64,000 nt of DNA, taken from contig NZ_JACOMF010000014.1 in assembly GCF_014283215.1 (NCBI RefSeq), forward strand, positions 1 through 64,000. Reading direction: 5' to 3'. The position numbers were made by a program, and so were the translations under genes. Of the stretch, positions 40,945 through 62,632 are shown piece by piece. The notes beneath the pieces were generated by a model. It was not told where the DNA came from. It worked only from the letters and a program-made list of their open reading frames with translations, and did not search any database. The stretch is from Siccirubricoccus deserti. Its GTDB lineage: Bacteria; Pseudomonadota; Alphaproteobacteria; Acetobacterales; Acetobacteraceae. How positions within the stretch are numbered: the stretch's first letter is position 1; each line of letters starts with the position of its first letter.

Positions 40945-41286
40945 ATGGGAGACCAGATCGCCTTCGCCGATTTCGAGAAAGTCGATATCCGGGTCGGCAC
41001 CGTTATCGACGCCCAGCCCTTCCCGGAGGCGCGGAAGCCGGCGATCAAGCTCTGGGTCGATTTCGGCAGCGTTATCGGGGTGAAGCGCAGCTCCGCCCAG
41101 CTCACCGTGCATTACCCGCCGGATCGGCTGATCGGCCGGCAGGTGCTGGCGGTGGTGAATTTCCCACCGCGGCAGATCGGCCCCTTTGTCTCCGAGGTGC
41201 TGGTGCTGGGCGCGCCGGACGAGAATGGTGCGGTGGTGCTGCTACGCCCCGACCTCAAGGTACCCGATGGCGGGCGGATGTTCTGA
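40945..41286 (+). CDS. csaA: CsaA-like tRNA-binding-domain protein
   Basis: This 113-aa OB-fold protein carries the CsaA signature [32 protein letters not shown], then [34 protein letters not shown] and [11 protein letters not shown]. CsaA dimers bind tRNA and have chaperone-like activity linked to export in other bacteria. The TGA overlaps the ATG of the phosphoribosyltransferase (TGATG). Confidence 0.92.
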
Positions 41287-41795
41287 TGGCCGAGGCGCCT
41301 GCCCCGGCCCCGAAGCCGTCGCCGCGCTACTACACCGTGTCCTGGGACCAGCTCCACCGCGACAGCAAGGCGCTGGCCTGGCGGCTGGTGGAGCGTGGCG
41401 GGTTCCGTGGCGTTGTGGCCGTCACCCGTGGCGGGCTGATCCCGGCGGCGATCGTGGCGCGGGAGCTGGAGTGCCGAATCATCGAGACCGTCTCCGTCGT
41501 CACCTATGAGGAAACGCTGCGCGGCACGCCACAGGTGGTGAAGCCGCCCACCGCCGCCGGCGACGGCGAGGGCTGGCTGCTGGTGGACGATCTGATCGAC
41601 ACTGGAACCACCGCGAAGGCGGTGCGGGCGCTGCTGCCGAAGGCGCATTTCGCCACGGTCTACGCCAAGCCGGCGGGCCGGCCGGCGGTCGACACCTTCA
41701 TCACCGAGGTCAGCCAGGACACCTGGATCCTGTTCCCCTGGGACACGGAAGCGCGATTTGTAGAACCGATCGCTAGATCAACCAATCAGCCGTGA
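41286..41795 (+). CDS. gpt: Xanthine-type phosphoribosyltransferase with element-supplied C-terminus
   Basis: This 169-aa protein has the PRPP loop [16 protein letters not shown] and the Gpt-like start [20 protein letters not shown] with [19 protein letters not shown]. It recycles xanthine/guanine to nucleotides. An integrative element has inserted at codon about 150. The sequence from [20 protein letters not shown] onward comes from the element, whereas the displaced original ending FPWDTEAQFVPPIARR with its stop is found at 47848-47898. The reading frame is restored with only a few changed residues, so the enzyme is probably still active. Confidence 0.9.
41733..41746. repeat. attL core, TTCCCCTGGGACAC
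   Basis: This copy lies inside the gpt reading frame. The identical 14-mer recurs at 47848. Downstream of each copy the sequences are similar but diverged (GGAAGCGC versus CGAGGCGC), as expected when an element brings its own version of the target gene's end. Confidence 0.88.
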
Positions 41796-42001
41796 GGCCA
41801 CGCTTACAAATCTGATTCTGTTAGTTTTTTTGGTTTCATATTCTTGCCCTGGGCCACACCACCTCTCTCCTTTCGCGTGCAATTCGTAGGTATTAGGCGC
41901 AATTACGGGCGAAATCGGGGGAGGAATGTATGGTGCTTGTATGAGTTGCGGAGCGCCCATACACGGCCTAAAGCGGACACCTGATCCCATAAGGCCCCCA
42001 T
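41796..42001. promoter_or_regulatory. AT-rich leader of the integrase gene
   Basis: These 206 bp hold a T-run (about 41820-41832) after the gpt stop, AT-rich DNA, and GGGGGAGGAATG at about 41917-41930. The stretch should hold the integrase promoter and arm-type sites. No clear iterons could be recognised. Confidence 0.4.
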
Positions 42002-43300
42002 GTGCCGACGATCCGCCTCCGCACCGAAGCCCCCTCGCTGACCTGCCCGCCCGACCGGGTACAGGTTTATTTCACCGACCTCGAAACGCAGCGGCTCCGC
42101 CTTCGGGTGGCCCGCAGCGGGCGGCATGTTTGGGACTGGCGCGCCGGGCAACGGACGGAGTTGCTGGGCCGTTTCGATCCCGCCGGGGAGCGCGGCCTGA
42201 CCTATCAGGAGGCCAAAAGGCGCGCCGACGCGCTGAACGCTGCGCTTGATCGCGGGCACAGCGTGGAGTCCGCTATCGCCACGCCGCGCGTCCGAACCGT
42301 CACCGAAATGTGCGAGCACTATCTGACTAAGAAGGTCCGCGACTTCACCCGCACCCGGCGGCCGAAGGCCACGGAGGCTGGCACGCGCTCGTCGTTGAAG
42401 CCCTTGCTGGCGCGCTACGGCGAAGAGCGGGTCATCGACCTCAGCCGCGAAATGATCCTCCGCGTCGTGGAGGCTGCCGGGCTGGCCAACCGGCCCGCGG
42501 GGATGAAGCTGGTCAAGGCGCTGCGTGCAGCGTTCAACTACTGCCAGCGTAGCGGCGTCCTAGCTCCGTTCGGCCGCGACGGCGCGCCACTGACCAACCC
42601 GGCCTCCAACCTCATCCGCGACGAGCGCTTGCTGAAAGTACGCAACCGCAACAGCTACGCGGCCTCACTGAGCGACGCCAAGATCGTGGCGCTGATGCGC
42701 GGCATCGGACGCGCGAAAGGTGTTTGGGACGGCGGGCGGCGCGCGAGGCCGGGCATCGACGAAGTCCCAATGCGGTGGCCCGCGGGGTATCTCGCCGTCG
42801 AGTTCTTGATCCATACCGGCTGCCGCCGCGCGGAAGCCGAACTGCTGCACGTGGGCGACATCTTGGGGGACGTGGCGGTCATCGGGGAGCACAAAACCGA
42901 CGACACGGGCGCGAAGCGGGTTCACCTCTCGCCTCAGGCCCTCCGCGTGCTGGACGAAGCCGCGCGCCTCCGCGAGAGCATGCGCTACAGCGGGCCGTTG
43001 GTGTTCCCTGGACAGGCCGGAGAGGTCATAACTTCGGTCAACGATTGCCTCGACACCGCCTGCCAGGTTGCGGGCATCCGGCGGCTGATCGTCCACAATC
43101 TCCGCAGCGTCTACATCAACTTCGCCGTCAGGCAGGGCACGCCGCTTGAAGTGGTGCAGCGGAACGTCGGCCACCGCAACATCGCCACGACGCGCCAGCA
43201 CTACCGGCTGGTTGAGGACCAAATTCGCAAGCAGGCCGCCGACGAAGTATCGGCAGCGATCGACCGGCTGCTGGCAATGGAGACATCGGAGGCCGCGTAG
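42002..43300 (+). CDS. Tyrosine-type site-specific integrase of the gpt element
   Basis: This protein of about 432 aa has an N-terminal arm-binding domain (PTIRLRTEAPSLTCPPDRVQVYFTDLETQRLRLRVARSGRHVW), a core-binding domain, and a catalytic domain. The catalytic domain has Arg in TGCRRAEAELL, Lys in GEHKTDDTGAK, HNLRS (His-x-x-Arg), His in NVGHRNIATT and the nucleophile Tyr in RQHYRLVED. GTG 42002 is used; the overlapping ATG at 42000 is in another frame. Its place next to attL agrees with a role in insertion and excision. Related in motif style to the integrase at 319-1788 but clearly different in sequence. Confidence 0.94.
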   Translation: MPTIRLRTEAPSLTCPPDRVQVYFTDLETQRLRLRVARSGRHVWDWRAGQRTELLGRFDPAGERGLTYQEAKRRADALNAALDRGHSVESAIATPRVRTVTEMCEHYLTKKVRDFTRTRRPKATEAGTRSSLKPLLARYGEERVIDLSREMILRVVEAAGLANRPAGMKLVKALRAAFNYCQRSGVLAPFGRDGAPLTNPASNLIRDERLLKVRNRNSYAASLSDAKIVALMRGIGRAKGVWDGGRRARPGIDEVPMRWPAGYLAVEFLIHTGCRRAEAELLHVGDILGDVAVIGEHKTDDTGAKRVHLSPQALRVLDEAARLRESMRYSGPLVFPGQAGEVITSVNDCLDTACQVAGIRRLIVHNLRSVYINFAVRQGTPLEVVQRNVGHRNIATTRQHYRLVEDQIRKQAADEVSAAIDRLLAMETSEAA

Positions 43301-43432
43301 CCGAACACCACTGCACGAAGATACGCGAGCGGCCCGGCGGGCCGATCAAGCTCATCACGTGTAGCATAGCAGATGCGCACGGGGCACGGGCTCTGGCGCA
43401 GAGTTCGGGGAACCATGCTGGCTAAATAGCCG

Positions 43433-43783
43433 GTGAAACCCTTCGACCCTGCCGCTCTACGTGACCGCCTGGCACGCACCGGCCTTCGGTTCGGCTGGCC
43501 CACCGCCACCGACCTCGCCCTCCACCCGCACGTCGTCGTCCTGCACGACCTCTCCCGCGCCAAGCTCGGCGACTGGCGCTTCGTTCGCGTGTTCCAGACC
43601 GCCCGTGCCGCCGCCGCGCGGCTCGCGCCCGGCGCCCATCTCGTCGAGGCCATCTACGAGCAGCACCAGCGTACCGGCTACAAGTTCCGGTTCGCCACCT
43701 CGATGGCCGCGCTGCGCTTCCGGCTGTGCTACTCCGCAGCCCTCGCCGGGCGACCGTCTCCCTTGATCTCGGGAGGCCGGTGA
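43433..43783 (+). CDS. Hypothetical protein, first gene of the HUH-protein operon
   Basis: This 116-aa protein is basic, with no membrane helix. RFGWPTATDLALHPHVVVLHDLSRAKLGDWRFVRVFQTA and the helical middle suggest a compact alpha/beta domain, but I do not recognise the family. GTG 43433 is the first start. The stop abuts the ATG of the next gene, so the three genes 43433-44967 look like one transcript. Confidence 0.6.
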   Translation: MKPFDPAALRDRLARTGLRFGWPTATDLALHPHVVVLHDLSRAKLGDWRFVRVFQTARAAAARLAPGAHLVEAIYEQHQRTGYKFRFATSMAALRFRLCYSAALAGRPSPLISGGR

Positions 43784-44050
43784 ATGGCTACCCGCAAGCC
43801 CCTCAAGCCGGGCGACATGACCCGGCGGATGGAGCGCGTCGCCACCATCCACGCAAAGCTCGACGACGAGCGCGCCCGACACCGCGACAAGATGCGCGAC
43901 CTCGCCCTCGCGCGCACCGAGGCAGAGGCGATGGACAAGCCAGCCGCGCGGCTGGCCCGCATGAACCGCATCACGCAGCAGGAGGCGGCCGAGCGCGACC
44001 GTCACCGCCGGGCGGTGGCGCGGCTACGCGAGCGGATCGCATCCGCATGA
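43784..44050 (+). CDS. Small highly charged helical (coiled-coil) protein
   Basis: This 88-aa protein is almost wholly helix-forming, with alternating Arg/Glu/Asp runs (HRDKMRDLALARTEAEAMDK). It starts directly after the preceding stop and overlaps the next gene by ATGA. It may be a DNA- or partner-binding accessory of the downstream HUH-like protein. The family is unknown. Confidence 0.65.
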   Translation: MATRKPLKPGDMTRRMERVATIHAKLDDERARHRDKMRDLALARTEAEAMDKPAARLARMNRITQQEAAERDRHRRAVARLRERIASA

Positions 44051-44967
44051 CCGCGCGCAGCAACCGCATCGTGATCTCGGCGCGCGAGCAGGCCGACGCC
44101 GAAATGGCCGCGATCTTCGCCGCGTCGGATGACCCGGCGCTCCGTGCGCTTGCCGAGAGGATGGTGCGCTGCCAGCAGTCGCGGGCCGAGAAGTCGCGGT
44201 GGCGCGACCTCCGCGATGTCATCCGAGTGGGATGGGGCTACCAGTGCAAGACCGTGGCCTGCTCGGCCTGTCGTCGTGCCCACCACATCCGCGAATGGCA
44301 GGTTAGGGTCCATGACCGCTTCGTCGATGCCGACAACGAGGATTGCAGCCTGGTGACAGTCCACCTCGCGCGTGTCGGCGACCTGAATGACATCCGCGAG
44401 GTGGTGGCGGGTGCGCGCCGAGCATTCCGTGATCTGCGCGACCGGCAGGCACGTCAGCGGCACCGCTGGCGCAGCGTCGAGGTGGCGGGCGTCGTGGAGG
44501 TAGACGCGATGGCGTCGGGCGACGTTCCGCTTCTCTTGTCCGACCGCGCCGCGATGCTGCCCTGCCTGCCGATGGTCGGTGCGGCCGGGCCGGTGGTTTG
44601 GCTTCCGCACCTCCATGCGGCCGTTCACCACCCTGACGTGGACAGGGCGGAACTGCGGGCGGCTCTGGAAGCGCGGTGGGAAGGCCCGCACCGTGTGGAC
44701 GTGCGAGAGTTCCACAGCGACAAGCTCGCTGGGGAGAACGCCGCCGATATCAACGGCTACGCCTCCAAATTCGATGCCTGCACCAACACGGACGGGATCG
44801 AGGAGCCGTGGCCCGTGTCGTGGCGGGCCGAGTGGTGGGGCTGGCTGCACTCGCTCCGCCGTGGCCTTGAACCGATGCGCGTCTCGTTCAAGCCGATGAA
44901 GGCGGTGGTGCCACTGCATGTGGTTCGCTGCGTCGAGGTCGAGCCCATGCCGTTCATCATCGCCTGA
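44047..44967 (+). CDS. Candidate HUH-type (rolling-circle) replication initiator/nickase with zinc-knuckle N-terminus
   Basis: This 306-aa protein contains, in the right order and spacing, the marks of plasmid rolling-circle Rep proteins. There is an N-terminal Cys cluster (C67, C72, C75 with H79/H80). A beta strand LVTVHLARVGDLNDIREVVAGARRAFRDL (about 102-130) corresponds to motif I (FLTLT). A second strand RSVEVAGVVEVDA follows. The metal-binding PHLHAAVHH has His188-Leu-His190 as HUH, and a Tyr motif NGYASKF has Tyr238 and Lys241 (YxxK). These enzymes nick one strand and bind covalently to it via Tyr. No helicase domain is present. The assignment is from motif order only and needs structural confirmation. 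It is the last gene of a three-gene coupled unit in the gpt element. Confidence 0.65.
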   Translation: MTARSNRIVISAREQADAEMAAIFAASDDPALRALAERMVRCQQSRAEKSRWRDLRDVIRVGWGYQCKTVACSACRRAHHIREWQVRVHDRFVDADNEDCSLVTVHLARVGDLNDIREVVAGARRAFRDLRDRQARQRHRWRSVEVAGVVEVDAMASGDVPLLLSDRAAMLPCLPMVGAAGPVVWLPHLHAAVHHPDVDRAELRAALEARWEGPHRVDVREFHSDKLAGENAADINGYASKFDACTNTDGIEEPWPVSWRAEWWGWLHSLRRGLEPMRVSFKPMKAVVPLHVVRCVEVEPMPFIIA

Positions 44968-45018
44968 CATGTCGATCGGCTCAGGATTCGGGGAGTGTAT
45001 AAATTGGTGGGTGCCGCG

Positions 45019-45705
45019 TCAGGCTCGCAGGCCGAGCCGTTCCAGCACGCGCGCGACTTGCACCGGCCTCCACGCCGAGCCGCCGCGCGTCGGGATGTTC
45101 TTCGCGTTCAGCGCGGCGGCGATGGTGTGCAGGCTGGTGGCACCCGTCCCCATGATCTGCTCGACCACCGGGCGGATGTCGCTGGCGAACTCCACGGCTT
45201 TGGCCTTGTTCGCCTTGGCGCCGTTGATGCGGCCCGTCGCCTGGTTGCTCAGGTTCGCCGGGTTGCCCAGCGGCAGGCCACGACGGCGACGCGCCGCCAG
45301 CGCAGCCTTGGTCCTGATGGACACGGCCCGTCGCTCCTCCTCGGCGGCGAGCGCGAGGACGCCGATGGTCATGCGGTTGACCGAGGGGCAGGAGGCCACC
45401 ACGAAGTCGATGCCGCGCCGCTCAAGGCCAAGGAGCCATGCCGCGTCTCTGCTCAGCCTGTCCAAGCGACTCACGATGAGCTTGGCCTTGTGGATGCGGC
45501 ACGCCTGAATGGCCGCCGCCAGTTCTGGCCGCTCGTCATCGAGCTTGGCGCCGGAGACCGTCTCGGTGAACTCCGCGACCAACTCCCACTGGCCGCCGTT
45601 CAGGTAGGACAGCACCTCCTCGCGCTGGCCTTCGAGGCCGAGGCCGGATCGACCCTGCCGCTGGGTGCTGACCCGGTACAGCGCGACGAACCTGCTCTTG
45701 ACCAC
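45019..45705 (-). CDS. Small serine recombinase (resolvase/invertase family)
   Basis: This protein of about 228 aa has catalytic Ser13 in ALYRVSTQRQG and the Arg-rich active-site helix LIVSRLDRLSRDAAWLL. It continues with a long E-type helix (TIGVLALAAEEERRAVSIRTKAALAARRRRG) and a C-terminal DNA-binding part (SLHTIAAALNAKNIPTRGG). GTG 45705 matches the family start and follows AAGGGG. The frame is open much further upstream, but those residues are not protein-like. Within the element it could resolve multimers, invert DNA or assist excision. It is the only serine recombinase in the window. Confidence 0.9.
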   Translation of the reverse strand: MVKSRFVALYRVSTQRQGRSGLGLEGQREEVLSYLNGGQWELVAEFTETVSGAKLDDERPELAAAIQACRIHKAKLIVSRLDRLSRDAAWLLGLERRGIDFVVASCPSVNRMTIGVLALAAEEERRAVSIRTKAALAARRRRGLPLGNPANLSNQATGRINGAKANKAKAVEFASDIRPVVEQIMGTGATSLHTIAAALNAKNIPTRGGSAWRPVQVARVLERLGLRA

Positions 45706-46066
45706 CCTGCCACACCCCTTTCGACGAACGTCGAAAGAGGTGTTACACCATATGTTTTGAAAAATCAACGTTAATACCGGCCGGTTCTCGGTCATGTTTT
45801 GGACTTGGCATCGCCCACCTCGCCGTTGATGTGCAGGGGTGCGACGAGGCGCGCTGTGCAGCAAGCCTCCTGACGGCATGCTGGGAAGGATGACGGCCGC
45901 TGCCGCCAGCACCCCTCCTGAGCCTTTTTCCGCACCGCTGGGGTGGGGTAAGGTGTGGAGGTGGCTCACCCCCTCACCGAAGTTCCTGACGGCGCTGATG
46001 GCCCCCGCTGCCGCCCGAGGCGGCCCCTCCACAAGGCAGGCGCAACAGCTACACGAGAGAAGATTA
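45706..46066. promoter_or_regulatory. 361-bp control region upstream of the serine recombinase
   Basis: The part at 45735-45800 is AT-rich and is followed toward the gene by the inverted repeat at 45718-45737. The rest (45800-46066) shows no convincing frame and should hold the end of the membrane-protein transcript. Confidence 0.45.
45718..45737. promoter_or_regulatory. Perfect inverted repeat CTTTCGAC-GAAC-GTCGAAAG at the recombinase start
   Basis: The 8-bp arms and 4-nt loop lie 13 bp before the GTG and overlap the AAGGGG ribosome site. An operator for autorepression or an mRNA hairpin that masks translation are the two natural readings. Confidence 0.55.
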
Positions 46067-47080
46067 TTAGCTCGCTGCACTCGTCAGCTTGGGAACAGCC
46101 TGGAAGATGTTGGTCGGGAGATCGGTTTGCGCCCCGCCCTTCGTGTATCCGGTCTCCTGCGGCGCGAAAATGCAGGCCGCAGCGTAGGTGAGCACGATGT
46201 CGCGCTTCTCCTCCTGCCCGGCGGCATCGACCAGAGCCTTGAAGGTCAGCAGGGCGTTCTGCCGGTGGCGGTTCACGATCGCATTGTGCTTGTGCGACAG
46301 GAAGTTCCGCGCGGACAGAAACAACATGTAGCCCATGACAGCGAAGATCAGCACCTTGCTCAGGCCCAACTGCACGGCCTCGTAGGTGTTGGTAGGAGCC
46401 AGCCAGGGGACCTTGTGCAGGCCGATCGAGAGCAGCGCGTACACGCCGAGCGCGACGGCAACCGACACGGTGTACCGGCGCCAGCGGTGAGCCTCCGCAT
46501 CATGCTCCTGGCTCTCGTCCTTAAAGTAGATTGCCTGCTGCGACACGCCCTGCTCGGCGGCCGTCTTGCGAACATCCTCCAAGATGCGCTGCGCCTCGGC
46601 CTGATGCCCCTCAAGCTCCGCCGCGATTGCATCGGCGCGGTCCGACGCAGCCTGCATGGCGGCTCGGGCATCTCGTTCTAGCGCCGAGTAGTCGCGCAGC
46701 CGCGACGCGCCGTAGGAGATCATCGAGTGCAGGGTGGTGAAGTGTTGGACGTACTGCGTCTGTAGCGTGGCGATGAGGTTAGTCCGCCGCGAAAATGCGT
46801 CGCCCTGCCTGGCGTCGAACTTAATGATCTCGTCGAGGATGCTGTAGAGCGAATCCGCACTGGACTTTATGTGCGCGATCATCTGGTCGGGCAACTCGTC
46901 AAGGTACTGGGCCGGGAATTGGGCGAAGAGGCTGATGATGCGCTCCGCGGGCGCGACTGCCTCGGCGAAGCTGAGGTCAGCGCCAAGCTTCTCGATCTGC
47001 GGCAGCACCTTGGCGTCGAAGTTCTGGACGCGCTCAAGCGATCTACGCGCTTCTACGACCTGCGCTTCCGACATCTTCAA
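46067..47080 (-). CDS. Coiled-coil protein with two membrane helices, unknown function
   Basis: This protein of about 337 aa has a helical N-terminal half with heptad-like spacing (about 5-60 and 130-175). Two membrane helices follow (about 203-222 and 241-257). The cytoplasmic C-terminal domain begins ARNFLSHKHNAIVNRHRQNALLTFKALVDAA and ends near CIFAPQETGY. I recall similar unannotated proteins with the NxHRxNALxTF block but know no function for them. TTG 47080 and ATG 47074 are both possible starts. As the largest non-recombination gene of the element it is the candidate cargo; an anti-phage role is speculation. Confidence 0.8.
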   Translation of the reverse strand: MKMSEAQVVEARRSLERVQNFDAKVLPQIEKLGADLSFAEAVAPAERIISLFAQFPAQYLDELPDQMIAHIKSSADSLYSILDEIIKFDARQGDAFSRRTNLIATLQTQYVQHFTTLHSMISYGASRLRDYSALERDARAAMQAASDRADAIAAELEGHQAEAQRILEDVRKTAAEQGVSQQAIYFKDESQEHDAEAHRWRRYTVSVAVALGVYALLSIGLHKVPWLAPTNTYEAVQLGLSKVLIFAVMGYMLFLSARNFLSHKHNAIVNRHRQNALLTFKALVDAAGQEEKRDIVLTYAAACIFAPQETGYTKGGAQTDLPTNIFQAVPKLTSAAS

Positions 47081-47291
47081 TCTCTACGTCAAAATGGGGC
47101 GCCATAATACCACAGCGCCTACGACCAATCACGTCCCCGTGTGATGCGCCTCGCGGGTGCGCGACCTGCGCCTTGGGCATGGCTCCGCTTGGGGACTACG
47201 CGCCTTCTGAATAGCGAAGCCGTGGTCTTACGTTAAGAACATGGCTGCCAAGCGGACACATGACGCCTCATGTCTCGGAGCACATCGCTTC
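47081..47291. other. Non-coding gap inside the element
   Basis: About 210 bp lie between the membrane-protein start and the stop of the HTH gene, both minus strand. It should contain the membrane-protein promoter. Nothing else is recognised. Confidence 0.4.
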
Positions 47292-47696
47292 TCAGGCAGG
47301 TTGCTGCCGGGGCCTACCGCGTCCGCGCTTGACCGGCACCGGCTCTGGCGCGACGGCCGTGTTCTTCAAATGTGCGGCCTTCCACTCCATCAGGTCGCGG
47401 AACGGGTAGCGAACCGCCTGCCCGAGATCGGTGTACGGCGGCCCCCGCTTCTTCGACGCCCAGTCTGCGAGCGTGGCTGCGGTGACACTCAACACCCGCG
47501 CTGCCTCCTCCCTGCTCAGGTCGGGATTGGCGTCGAGCGCCGCCTGTGCGGCGGGCGGGAGTGGGGCGACCGGGGCGGGCTCGGGTGCCTGTACGGCTCC
47601 CGGCAGCGGATGGATTATCGGCTGCCCCGTCGTGGGGTCGCAGTAGACGGCCCGGCCGAAGTGCCAGCCTAGGACGGGCTTGTAGACCACGCTCAT
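47292..47696 (-). CDS. Excisionase/AlpA-like HTH protein
   Basis: This 134-aa protein contains a MerR-like HTH_17 domain (LSREEAARVLSVTAATLADWASKKRGPPYTDLGQAVRYPFRDLMEWKAAH, about residues 61-110) as in AlpA and many excisionases. A Pro/Ala-rich linker and a variable N-terminus precede it, and an Arg/Gly/Pro tail (KRGRGRPRQQ, AT-hook-like) follows. It is the first gene inside attR. Probable recombination directionality factor or regulator of the element. Confidence 0.8.
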   Translation of the reverse strand: MSVVYKPVLGWHFGRAVYCDPTTGQPIIHPLPGAVQAPEPAPVAPLPPAAQAALDANPDLSREEAARVLSVTAATLADWASKKRGPPYTDLGQAVRYPFRDLMEWKAAHLKNTAVAPEPVPVKRGRGRPRQQPA

Positions 47697-47847
47697 GCGG
47701 TTGATCCCTGAACGGGGGCGGGCTCATACCGCTACGGGACACATGGGAGCAACGCCCAATTTTGATCTGAATGGGACGCGTATGGGCCAGGGGGTTAGTC
47801 TCCGGTATTTCCGTTTAAAATCATCGTGTTGGATTTTAAGGCTTTTA
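47697..47847. other. Right end of the element, AT-rich
   Basis: About 150 bp lie between the HTH gene start and attR and become AT-rich toward the core (47800-47845). This is the likely site of HTH-gene promoter and excisionase binding. Confidence 0.4.
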
Positions 47848-47898
47848 TTCCCCTGGGACACCGAGGCGCAGTTCGTCCCGCCGATCGCCCGGCGGTAG
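47848..47898 (+). pseudogene. attR with the displaced original 3' end of gpt
   Basis: The 14-mer TTCCCCTGGGACAC (47848-47861) is followed in frame by codons for FPWDTEAQFVPPIARR and TAG. This is the typical C-terminus of this phosphoribosyltransferase group and so the pre-insertion end of the gene at 41286. Confidence 0.88.
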
Positions 47899-52237: not shown

Positions 52238-52251
52238 CCCACGCCAGCCCC

Positions 52252-52292
52252 GCCCCCGACAATCCTGCGTGCCACGCAGGATTGTCGGGGGC
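52252..52292. terminator. Perfect 41-bp palindrome after the monooxygenase gene
   Basis: 20-bp arms (52252-52271 and 52273-52292) pair perfectly around a single central base. The left arm begins GCCCCCGACAATCC. It lies 15 bp after the stop codon. It would form a very stable hairpin and could act as a terminator, although no T-run follows. A second GCCCCCGAC copy occurs about 25 bp further on at about 52316-52324. Confidence 0.75.
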
Positions 52293-52324
52293 AGCCATGT
52301 CCAGGGGTCAGTATCGCCCCCGAC

Positions 52325-62594: not shown

Positions 62595-62632
62595 GGTGGC
62601 CCCTGAAGCCGTGCATGGCTTCAGGGGCCACC
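62595..62632. terminator. Strong hairpin between pntB and the convergent rutB
   Basis: Perfect 16-bp arms (62595-62610 and 62617-62632, GGTGGCCCCTGAAGCC and its complement) enclose a 6-nt loop. It lies 10 bp after the pntB stop and 9 bp before the rutB stop. It is a likely two-way terminator, although no U-tract is present. Confidence 0.8.

Follow-up and report, generated by a model that had tools for sequence, protein, structure and literature searches.

A compact integrative element in the gpt 3′ end of Siccirubricoccus deserti with a tyrosine integrase and a predicted HUH-type initiator

The element and its boundaries

The window analysed here is a 64,000-nucleotide stretch of the Siccirubricoccus deserti genome (contig NZ_JACOMF010000014.1, positions 1 to 64,000), and our subject is a compact element lodged in it at the 3′ end of gpt, the gene for xanthine phosphoribosyltransferase. 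A 14-bp direct repeat, TTCCCCTGGGACAC, lies at 41733-41746 and again at 47848-47861, a start-to-start distance of 6,115 bp, and is embedded in a longer 41-nt pair of 78% identity. Taken alone, the 14-bp repeat is unusual to a moderate degree only: a 14-mer common to the gpt 3′ end and the 6.1 kb arose by chance in 34 of 2000 shuffles. The proof of insertion therefore comes from empty sites. In both of the other genomes of the genus that were compared (G138 and G063) gpt is uninterrupted, and nucleotides 47848-47892 of the window are 95% identical, over 44-45 nt, to their native gpt 3′ end. On the left, the alignment with these two genes runs on to 41754 and 41773, 8-27 nt beyond the core, because the gpt ending supplied by the element resembles the native ending. 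With the insertion in place gpt still codes, by translation, for a 169-aa protein; joining the flanks, as in the empty site, gives a 165-aa product ending FPWDTEAQFVPPIARR, as in the G138 and G063 relatives.

The element is real, and it is inserted in the gpt 3′ end. It has what is expected of a site-specific integrative element of the tyrosine integrase type: an integrase gene, direct repeats, and relatives in which the site is empty. The repeats at both ends and the duplicated gpt 3′ end had been pointed out in an initial annotation of this DNA, and the repeat coordinates and empty sites bear them out. The G+C content of the element (0.659) is slightly below that of its flanks (0.697 and 0.701). 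The features, left to right, are as follows.

41286..41795, +, gpt (xanthine phosphoribosyltransferase), attL side, with the element-supplied 3′ end (NCBIfam NF006613, E=2.9e-72; translation)
41733..41746, +, attL core direct repeat (repeat search; empty-site comparison)
42002..43300, +, tyrosine integrase, 432 aa, GTG start (PF00589, E=9.1e-12; PHROG 1, E=1e-33; 55-56% relative in G121)
43433..43783, +, orf116, a small conserved protein before HUH-family genes (homologues near an HUH-family gene in several loci)
43784..44050, +, orf88, overlapping the start of the HUH gene (ATGA) (30% relative in L012; weak YAcAr match below cut-off)
44047..44967, +, 306-aa predicted HUH initiator-type protein with C67/C72/C75, E151, H188-x-H190 (nt 44608-44616) and Y238-xx-K241 (nt 44758-44769) (invariant columns; low-confidence model)
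45019..45705, −, small serine recombinase of resolvase/invertase type, 228 aa (PF00239, E=5.4e-22; 41% relative in L009)
45712..45743, no strand, near-perfect palindrome directly upstream of the serine recombinase gene, a candidate recombination site, operator or replication origin
46067..47080, −, two-transmembrane (two-TM) membrane protein, 337 aa, candidate defence cargo (hydropathy peaks at 203-225 and 235-261; weak DUF6161 similarity)
47292..47696, −, HTH_17/excisionase-like protein, 134 aa (PF12728, E=1e-8; TIGR01764 excise, E=2.7e-4, below cut-off; PHROG 66, E=8.7e-6)
47848..47861, +, attR core direct repeat (repeat search)
47848..47898, +, displaced native gpt 3′ end (95% over 44-45 nt to the uninterrupted gpt of G138 and G063)

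A tRNA-His called by ARAGORN at 41381-41470 falls within the gpt coding sequence and is probably false.

Gene content

On the + strand the integrase gene is followed by the closely spaced orf116, orf88 and 306-aa genes, the last two overlapping, and the − strand carries the serine recombinase, two-TM and HTH_17 genes. No interrupted open reading frame (ORF) was seen within the element. The gene set first proposed (integrase, coupled operon, divergent serine recombinase, membrane protein and helix-turn-helix (HTH) gene) stood up to the Pfam and NCBIfam searches; the gene identities were kept and the limits needed small corrections, the 306-aa ORF being 44047-44967 and the serine recombinase most likely starting at 45705. 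orf116 has no family match in PHROG, Pfam or NCBIfam. The 18-bp core of the palindrome at 45712-45743 occurs once in the 6.3-Mb genome; the palindrome may be the site of the recombinase or the origin of the HUH protein. When the whole element was compared with plasmid records, seven of them each matched 1-7% of its length in the region of the serine recombinase gene, and none spanned the element.

Having its own integrase and HTH_17 genes, the element possesses the integration and putative excision module expected of an integrative and mobilizable element (IME). Searches of the seven element ORFs with PHROG, PADLOC, Pfam and NCBIfam gave no match to a capsid, terminase, relaxase or FtsK protein, as the initial annotation had supposed for capsid and terminase genes. 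In another genome, G121, a 55% relative of the window integrase has a DUF5906 helicase gene as its neighbour (L008, 6069-10854), and no HUH homologue was found there. From this locus, it may be that elements with related integrases swap their replication modules.

Another reading is a phage satellite, an element whose circle replicates and is packaged by a tailed or filamentous helper phage. The integrase/excisionase layout and the helicase gene beside the 55% integrase relative agree with that idea. Against it, neither capsid and terminase genes nor a phage-interference gene were recognised in the seven ORFs, the integrase has no phage match at E<=1e-20, and no homologue of the 306-aa protein was found in 50,697 phage records or in pattern-based scans of viral contigs. 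We regard a satellite as improbable.

The 306-aa protein

The 306-aa protein has no significant match in Pfam, NCBIfam, PHROG or PADLOC, and a sequence profile search of the PDB with it returned insignificant matches only. Relatives were found in G597 (43-45% identity), in G752, on a contig of a metagenome-assembled genome (L032) and, more distantly, in G476, G405 and G458. When the window protein was aligned with six relatives, which are 18-45% identical to it, the sole columns besides Met1 that were invariant in all seven were C67, C72, C75, E151, H188, H190, Y238 and K241. (Two further relatives were left out of the alignment: L045, which has HIY for HxH, and L050, which ends after about 200 residues.) The cysteines form a CxxxxCxxC cluster. 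All seven sequences have HxH and then a tyrosine, as in the Y1 initiator-type HUH superfamily. The initial annotation had made its reading depend on this being an HUH enzyme, and the homologues do not speak otherwise, HxH and YxxK being invariant among them.

A metal-binding HxH followed some 50 residues on by YxxK is the motif 2/motif 3 order of single-tyrosine rolling-circle initiators (PMC3218068). The protein thus has the layout of such an initiator, and nicking is predicted. One observation on the truncated relative may be added: L050 8261-8878 (G767), 46% identical, is followed by a transposase-like frame and is probably an interrupted copy.

Structure prediction used a three-row input (window, L032 and L033). 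In the better core of the model, about residues 91-150 and 191-220, the order is strand-helix-strand-strand(HxH)-helix-strand, which agrees with the order of the HUH core. Searched against BFVD, the model gave a best E of 1.3e-4; four of its 462 matches were at E<=0.001, all four unnamed. Five of the top 50 of these matches carry names, namely four Microviridae replication proteins (ranks 15, 30, 33 and 39) and a herpesvirus protein (rank 37). That the named viral-model matches are mostly microviral initiators is a further point for a phage satellite. The HUH assignment is made because of the conserved residues, with which the predicted fold is compatible only.

The order of the motifs also bears on whether the element is an IME, its HUH protein being mainly a non-canonical relaxase that lets it hitch-hike on conjugative elements. 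The layout and size agree with an IME. In canonical relaxases, though, the order is reversed, the tyrosine lying ahead of the HUH, whereas here HUH precedes tyrosine, as in initiators. The window element showed no recognisable oriT or coupling protein, and the host assembly has no match to PF02534, the one coupling family searched. We consider an IME possible but rather unlikely.

Relatives with repeats of their own

The wider protein family is rare. At E<=1e-6 it was found in nine of 397 genomes of the taxonomic family, the window's own included: with HxH in the window, G597 and G752, with HIY in G714, truncated in G767 and without the HUH motif in four. Smaller samples gave matches in 4 of 200 and 3 of 299 genomes. 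A search at the level of the class (E<=0.01) yielded 10 of 385 genomes, several of them spurious; two of its 15 rows were the window's own genome, and the homologues kept were those in G476 (L016), G405 (L017) and G458 (L020). Ten rows were dropped: five from G293 (L018 and L025-L028), which by eye are of the terminase small-subunit type, and L019 and L021-L024, with E values of 0.003-0.01. In six of the ten (L018, L019 and L021-L024) no H-x-H followed by Y-xx-K was present in any frame near the match. A first scan of genome contigs returned no relatives and a second gave L032 and L033; searches of plasmids, phages and viral contigs with the HUH protein, and with that of L032, were empty. The element had originally been called alphaproteobacterial, which holds: G405, a genome bearing a relative, belongs to the same class as the window.

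Four relatives lie in elements bounded by repeats of their own, three of them at tRNA 3′ ends. L032 has a 21-bp repeat at tRNA-Tyr enclosing 5.9 kb with integrase and HUH genes, a serine recombinase and a 425-aa ORF. L033 has an 18-bp repeat at tRNA-Gln, 12.4 kb, the order integrase-HTH-HUH and a serine recombinase. L051 (G752) has a 35-bp repeat at tRNA-Glu, 5.2 kb and the order integrase-HTH-HUH, with the integrase (PF00589, E=4.3e-5) and HTH matches below the Pfam cut-offs. The element of G597 has a 29-bp repeat, 13.5 kb, orf116 followed by HUH, a serine recombinase and an integrase known from its arm and SAM-like domains only. Of the five bounded elements, four thus have a serine recombinase, namely those of the window, G597, L032 and L033; none was seen in L051.

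The search for repeats covered eight loci (G597, L032, L033, L051, L029, L053, L012 and L009), with L010, L011, L031, L050, L052, L054 and L055 outside the scope. They were found in four of the five full-HUH loci and were convincing in none of the three HUH-less ones. The initial annotation had also asked whether the same genes are co-inherited between att repeats in other genomes; four independent bounded elements hold both an integrase and an HUH homologue.

Paralogues lacking the HUH motif

At seven loci (L002, L003, L004, L005, L053, L054 and L055) the relative keeps the cysteine cluster and lacks both HxH and YxxK. Six of these proteins (218-237 aa) were aligned, L004 being omitted as its frame ends early, and share 35 invariant residues; their profile matches that of the HUH set with 98.5% probability. 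In five of the seven loci (L003/L009, L005/L011, L002/L012, L053 and L054) the gene is directly preceded by one resembling orf116, that of L011 having been read from the ORF list, not by BLAST. The genome to which the window belongs also has such a paralogue (G000 contig 124). Since these paralogues are kept across genomes, the six aligned copies with 35 invariant residues, the protein family probably includes members with non-catalytic roles.

Their retention also fits a reading of the element as a remnant that no longer moves, a genomic island in which the HUH protein has ceased to replicate DNA and acts as a regulator. The window copy, however, retains all the invariant putative catalytic residues, no interrupted ORF was seen, the two repeat copies are identical and the site is empty in relatives. 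A remnant seems to us very improbable.

Near the HUH-less gene, on the opposite strand, two loci have a protein of 166-185 aa with HLH and then YCLK/YCTK (L009 9974-10474, −; L012 9519-10076, −). The L009 copy has no Pfam match and adjoins a serine recombinase. This second, small HUH-like protein possibly reflects a split initiator.

Cargo

Restriction or other defence-type genes are present in three of the four relatives' elements. In L051 these are a BamHI-like endonuclease (PF02923, E=4e-30) together with a DNA methylase (PF01555, E=7.5e-37), and in G597 Vsr accompanies a C5 methylase. The L033 element has a HerA-type helicase (PADLOC, E=7.4e-158), a relative of PDC-S31 and an HNH-type protein (PDC-M68A, E=8.2e-30). 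The HerA-type protein is also above the Pfam cut-offs for TrwB_AAD_bind and FtsK_SpoIIIE and could be a DNA-transfer ATPase instead of a defence protein; a transfer ATPase at that locus would favour an IME. The 425-aa ORF of L032 has no match in Pfam or PADLOC.

In the window the corresponding candidate is the 337-aa membrane protein, whose gene has the lowest G+C of the seven element genes (0.627) and whose similarity to DUF6161 is weak (E=0.0011, below cut-off). It has no relative among the phages or viral contigs searched. In 200 genomes of the family, the window's own aside, G171 alone has a relative (59%), with a G+C at third codon positions (GC3) of 0.40, the neighbouring ORFs being mostly at >=0.8. 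One plasmid, pFP31 of Vibrio tubiashii, has a relative (47%) flanked by the anti-phage gene hhe and an AbiH-family gene. The pFP31 neighbours and the GC3 of G171 are consistent with a mobile defence gene of predicted function, and the membrane protein is most likely an anti-phage cargo. The array around the pFP31 relative (L059) lies on one strand with regular gaps, looks integron-like by eye and holds anti-phage genes.

Proposed mechanism

We consider it probable that the window holds a compact integrative element, one of a family with a tyrosine integrase and an undescribed single-tyrosine HUH initiator. By sequence there is an insertion at the core, a preserved gpt, empty sites, uninterrupted genes and conserved putative catalytic residues. 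The integrase recombines a circle into the gpt 3′ end across the 14-bp core, the element restoring the end of the gene, as the sequence and empty sites show. The HTH protein is a probable excisionase or regulator. On the excised circle, Tyr238 of the HUH protein would make a nick at a double-strand origin, His188 and His190 and probably also Glu151 binding a metal, and rolling-circle replication started by the nick would keep or amplify the circle. An integrating rolling-circle element had been suggested from the start and is the best fit, replication being predicted. The serine recombinase may act in multimer resolution or in the switching of a segment, with the palindrome that precedes its gene as a possible site, and the two-TM protein would be an exchangeable defence-like cargo.

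As no transfer machinery was recognised, the element would depend for its movement on a conjugative helper element, a helper phage or natural transformation. The PF02534 search that was empty in the host assembly was positive in 5 of 14 control genomes, and thus no resident helper of that type was seen.

Several results weigh against a family of replicating HUH elements. The three-row model is poor (predicted local distance difference test, pLDDT, 49.5) and has no PDB match at E 0.001 or better; with VIA-align, chains that we take to be HUH enzymes score Z 6.7-7.2, below unrelated folds (best Z 8.7). Seven related proteins are without the motif, and L045 reads H-I-Y in its place. Hairpin scans of nine stretches from relatives revealed no common sequence, and no conserved origin was found; in the scanned loci no equivalent of the palindrome was seen but for one loose match inside a gene of L004/L010. 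L029, a full-HUH locus, has a 14-bp pair only, which was treated as chance; among the HUH-less loci so was a 16-bp pair in L009, and L053 and L012 have none.

A broader reading joins these threads. A new HUH initiator family (cysteine cluster, Glu, HxH and YxxK) may define alphaproteobacterial integrating rolling-circle elements that shuttle exchangeable anti-phage genes, the two-TM protein being a new defence effector; in a sister lineage the catalytic motif would have been lost and the protein kept as a non-catalytic DNA-binding factor, often with orf116. We offer it tentatively, as a possibility short of a likelihood.

Relation to known systems

Microviridae replication initiators have HUH before the tyrosine, and four of the five named proteins among the top 50 viral-model matches belong to them. 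Unlike these, six aligned members of the present family have no significant PHROG match, and no capsid gene was recognised. HUH transposases of the IS91 type likewise have a cysteine cluster ahead of the HUH domain, and Zn_Tnp_IS91 appears, non-significantly (E=0.06-0.12), in two relatives. Transposition of the IS91 type was rejected because the boundaries are 14-35-bp integrase-type repeats at gene 3′ ends, not of the HUH-transposition type.

Integrating elements with rolling-circle-type initiators are known in Actinobacteria and Firmicutes (PMC3218068; PMC5704250). The actinobacterial integrative and conjugative elements (AICEs, e.g., pSAM2) share the integrase, the excisionase-like gene and an initiator with HUH and then tyrosine, and replicate when excised (PMC3218068). 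The window element differs in being alphaproteobacterial, in having no FtsK/SpoIIIE match in its seven ORFs and in an initiator that matches neither RepAM nor Prim-Pol. Models of AICE replication proteins (Pfam Rep, DUF3631 and Prim-Pol) gave no match, RepSA being outside the model set. The initial comparison with AICEs holds for layout only, and since no FtsK-type protein was matched, we do not file the element as an AICE.

Streptococcal IMEs with initiator-type relaxases resemble it in site-specific integration, in combining an integrase with an initiator-type HUH protein and in being helper-dependent at best (PMC5704250). They differ in host class; the window HUH protein, moreover, falls outside the Pfam Rep families and has a cysteine cluster, a serine recombinase is added, and an oriT or coupling protein was not recognised. 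Strand-biased circularizing elements (SEs, e.g., SE-6945) are also integrative and distinct from IMEs and integrative and conjugative elements, whereas SEs are stated to code neither Xis homologues nor an HUH endonuclease (PMC9345347). PMC12324425 concerns another element type. No published description of this element family was found in the literature searched, and it is apparently undescribed.

The element offers a compact alphaproteobacterial counterpart to these systems, with an initiator that four family libraries do not recognise and that would probably receive a hypothetical-protein annotation. A minimal module of integrase, HUH protein and usually serine recombinase emerges from the five bounded examples and is searchable. 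Their cargo slot is a place to look for new defence genes, and the relatives without the catalytic motif exemplify the retention of an initiator in a different role.

Beyond the element, the window has two long near-perfect hairpins, at 52250-52294 (21 paired positions) and 62595-62632 (16), which are perhaps terminators.

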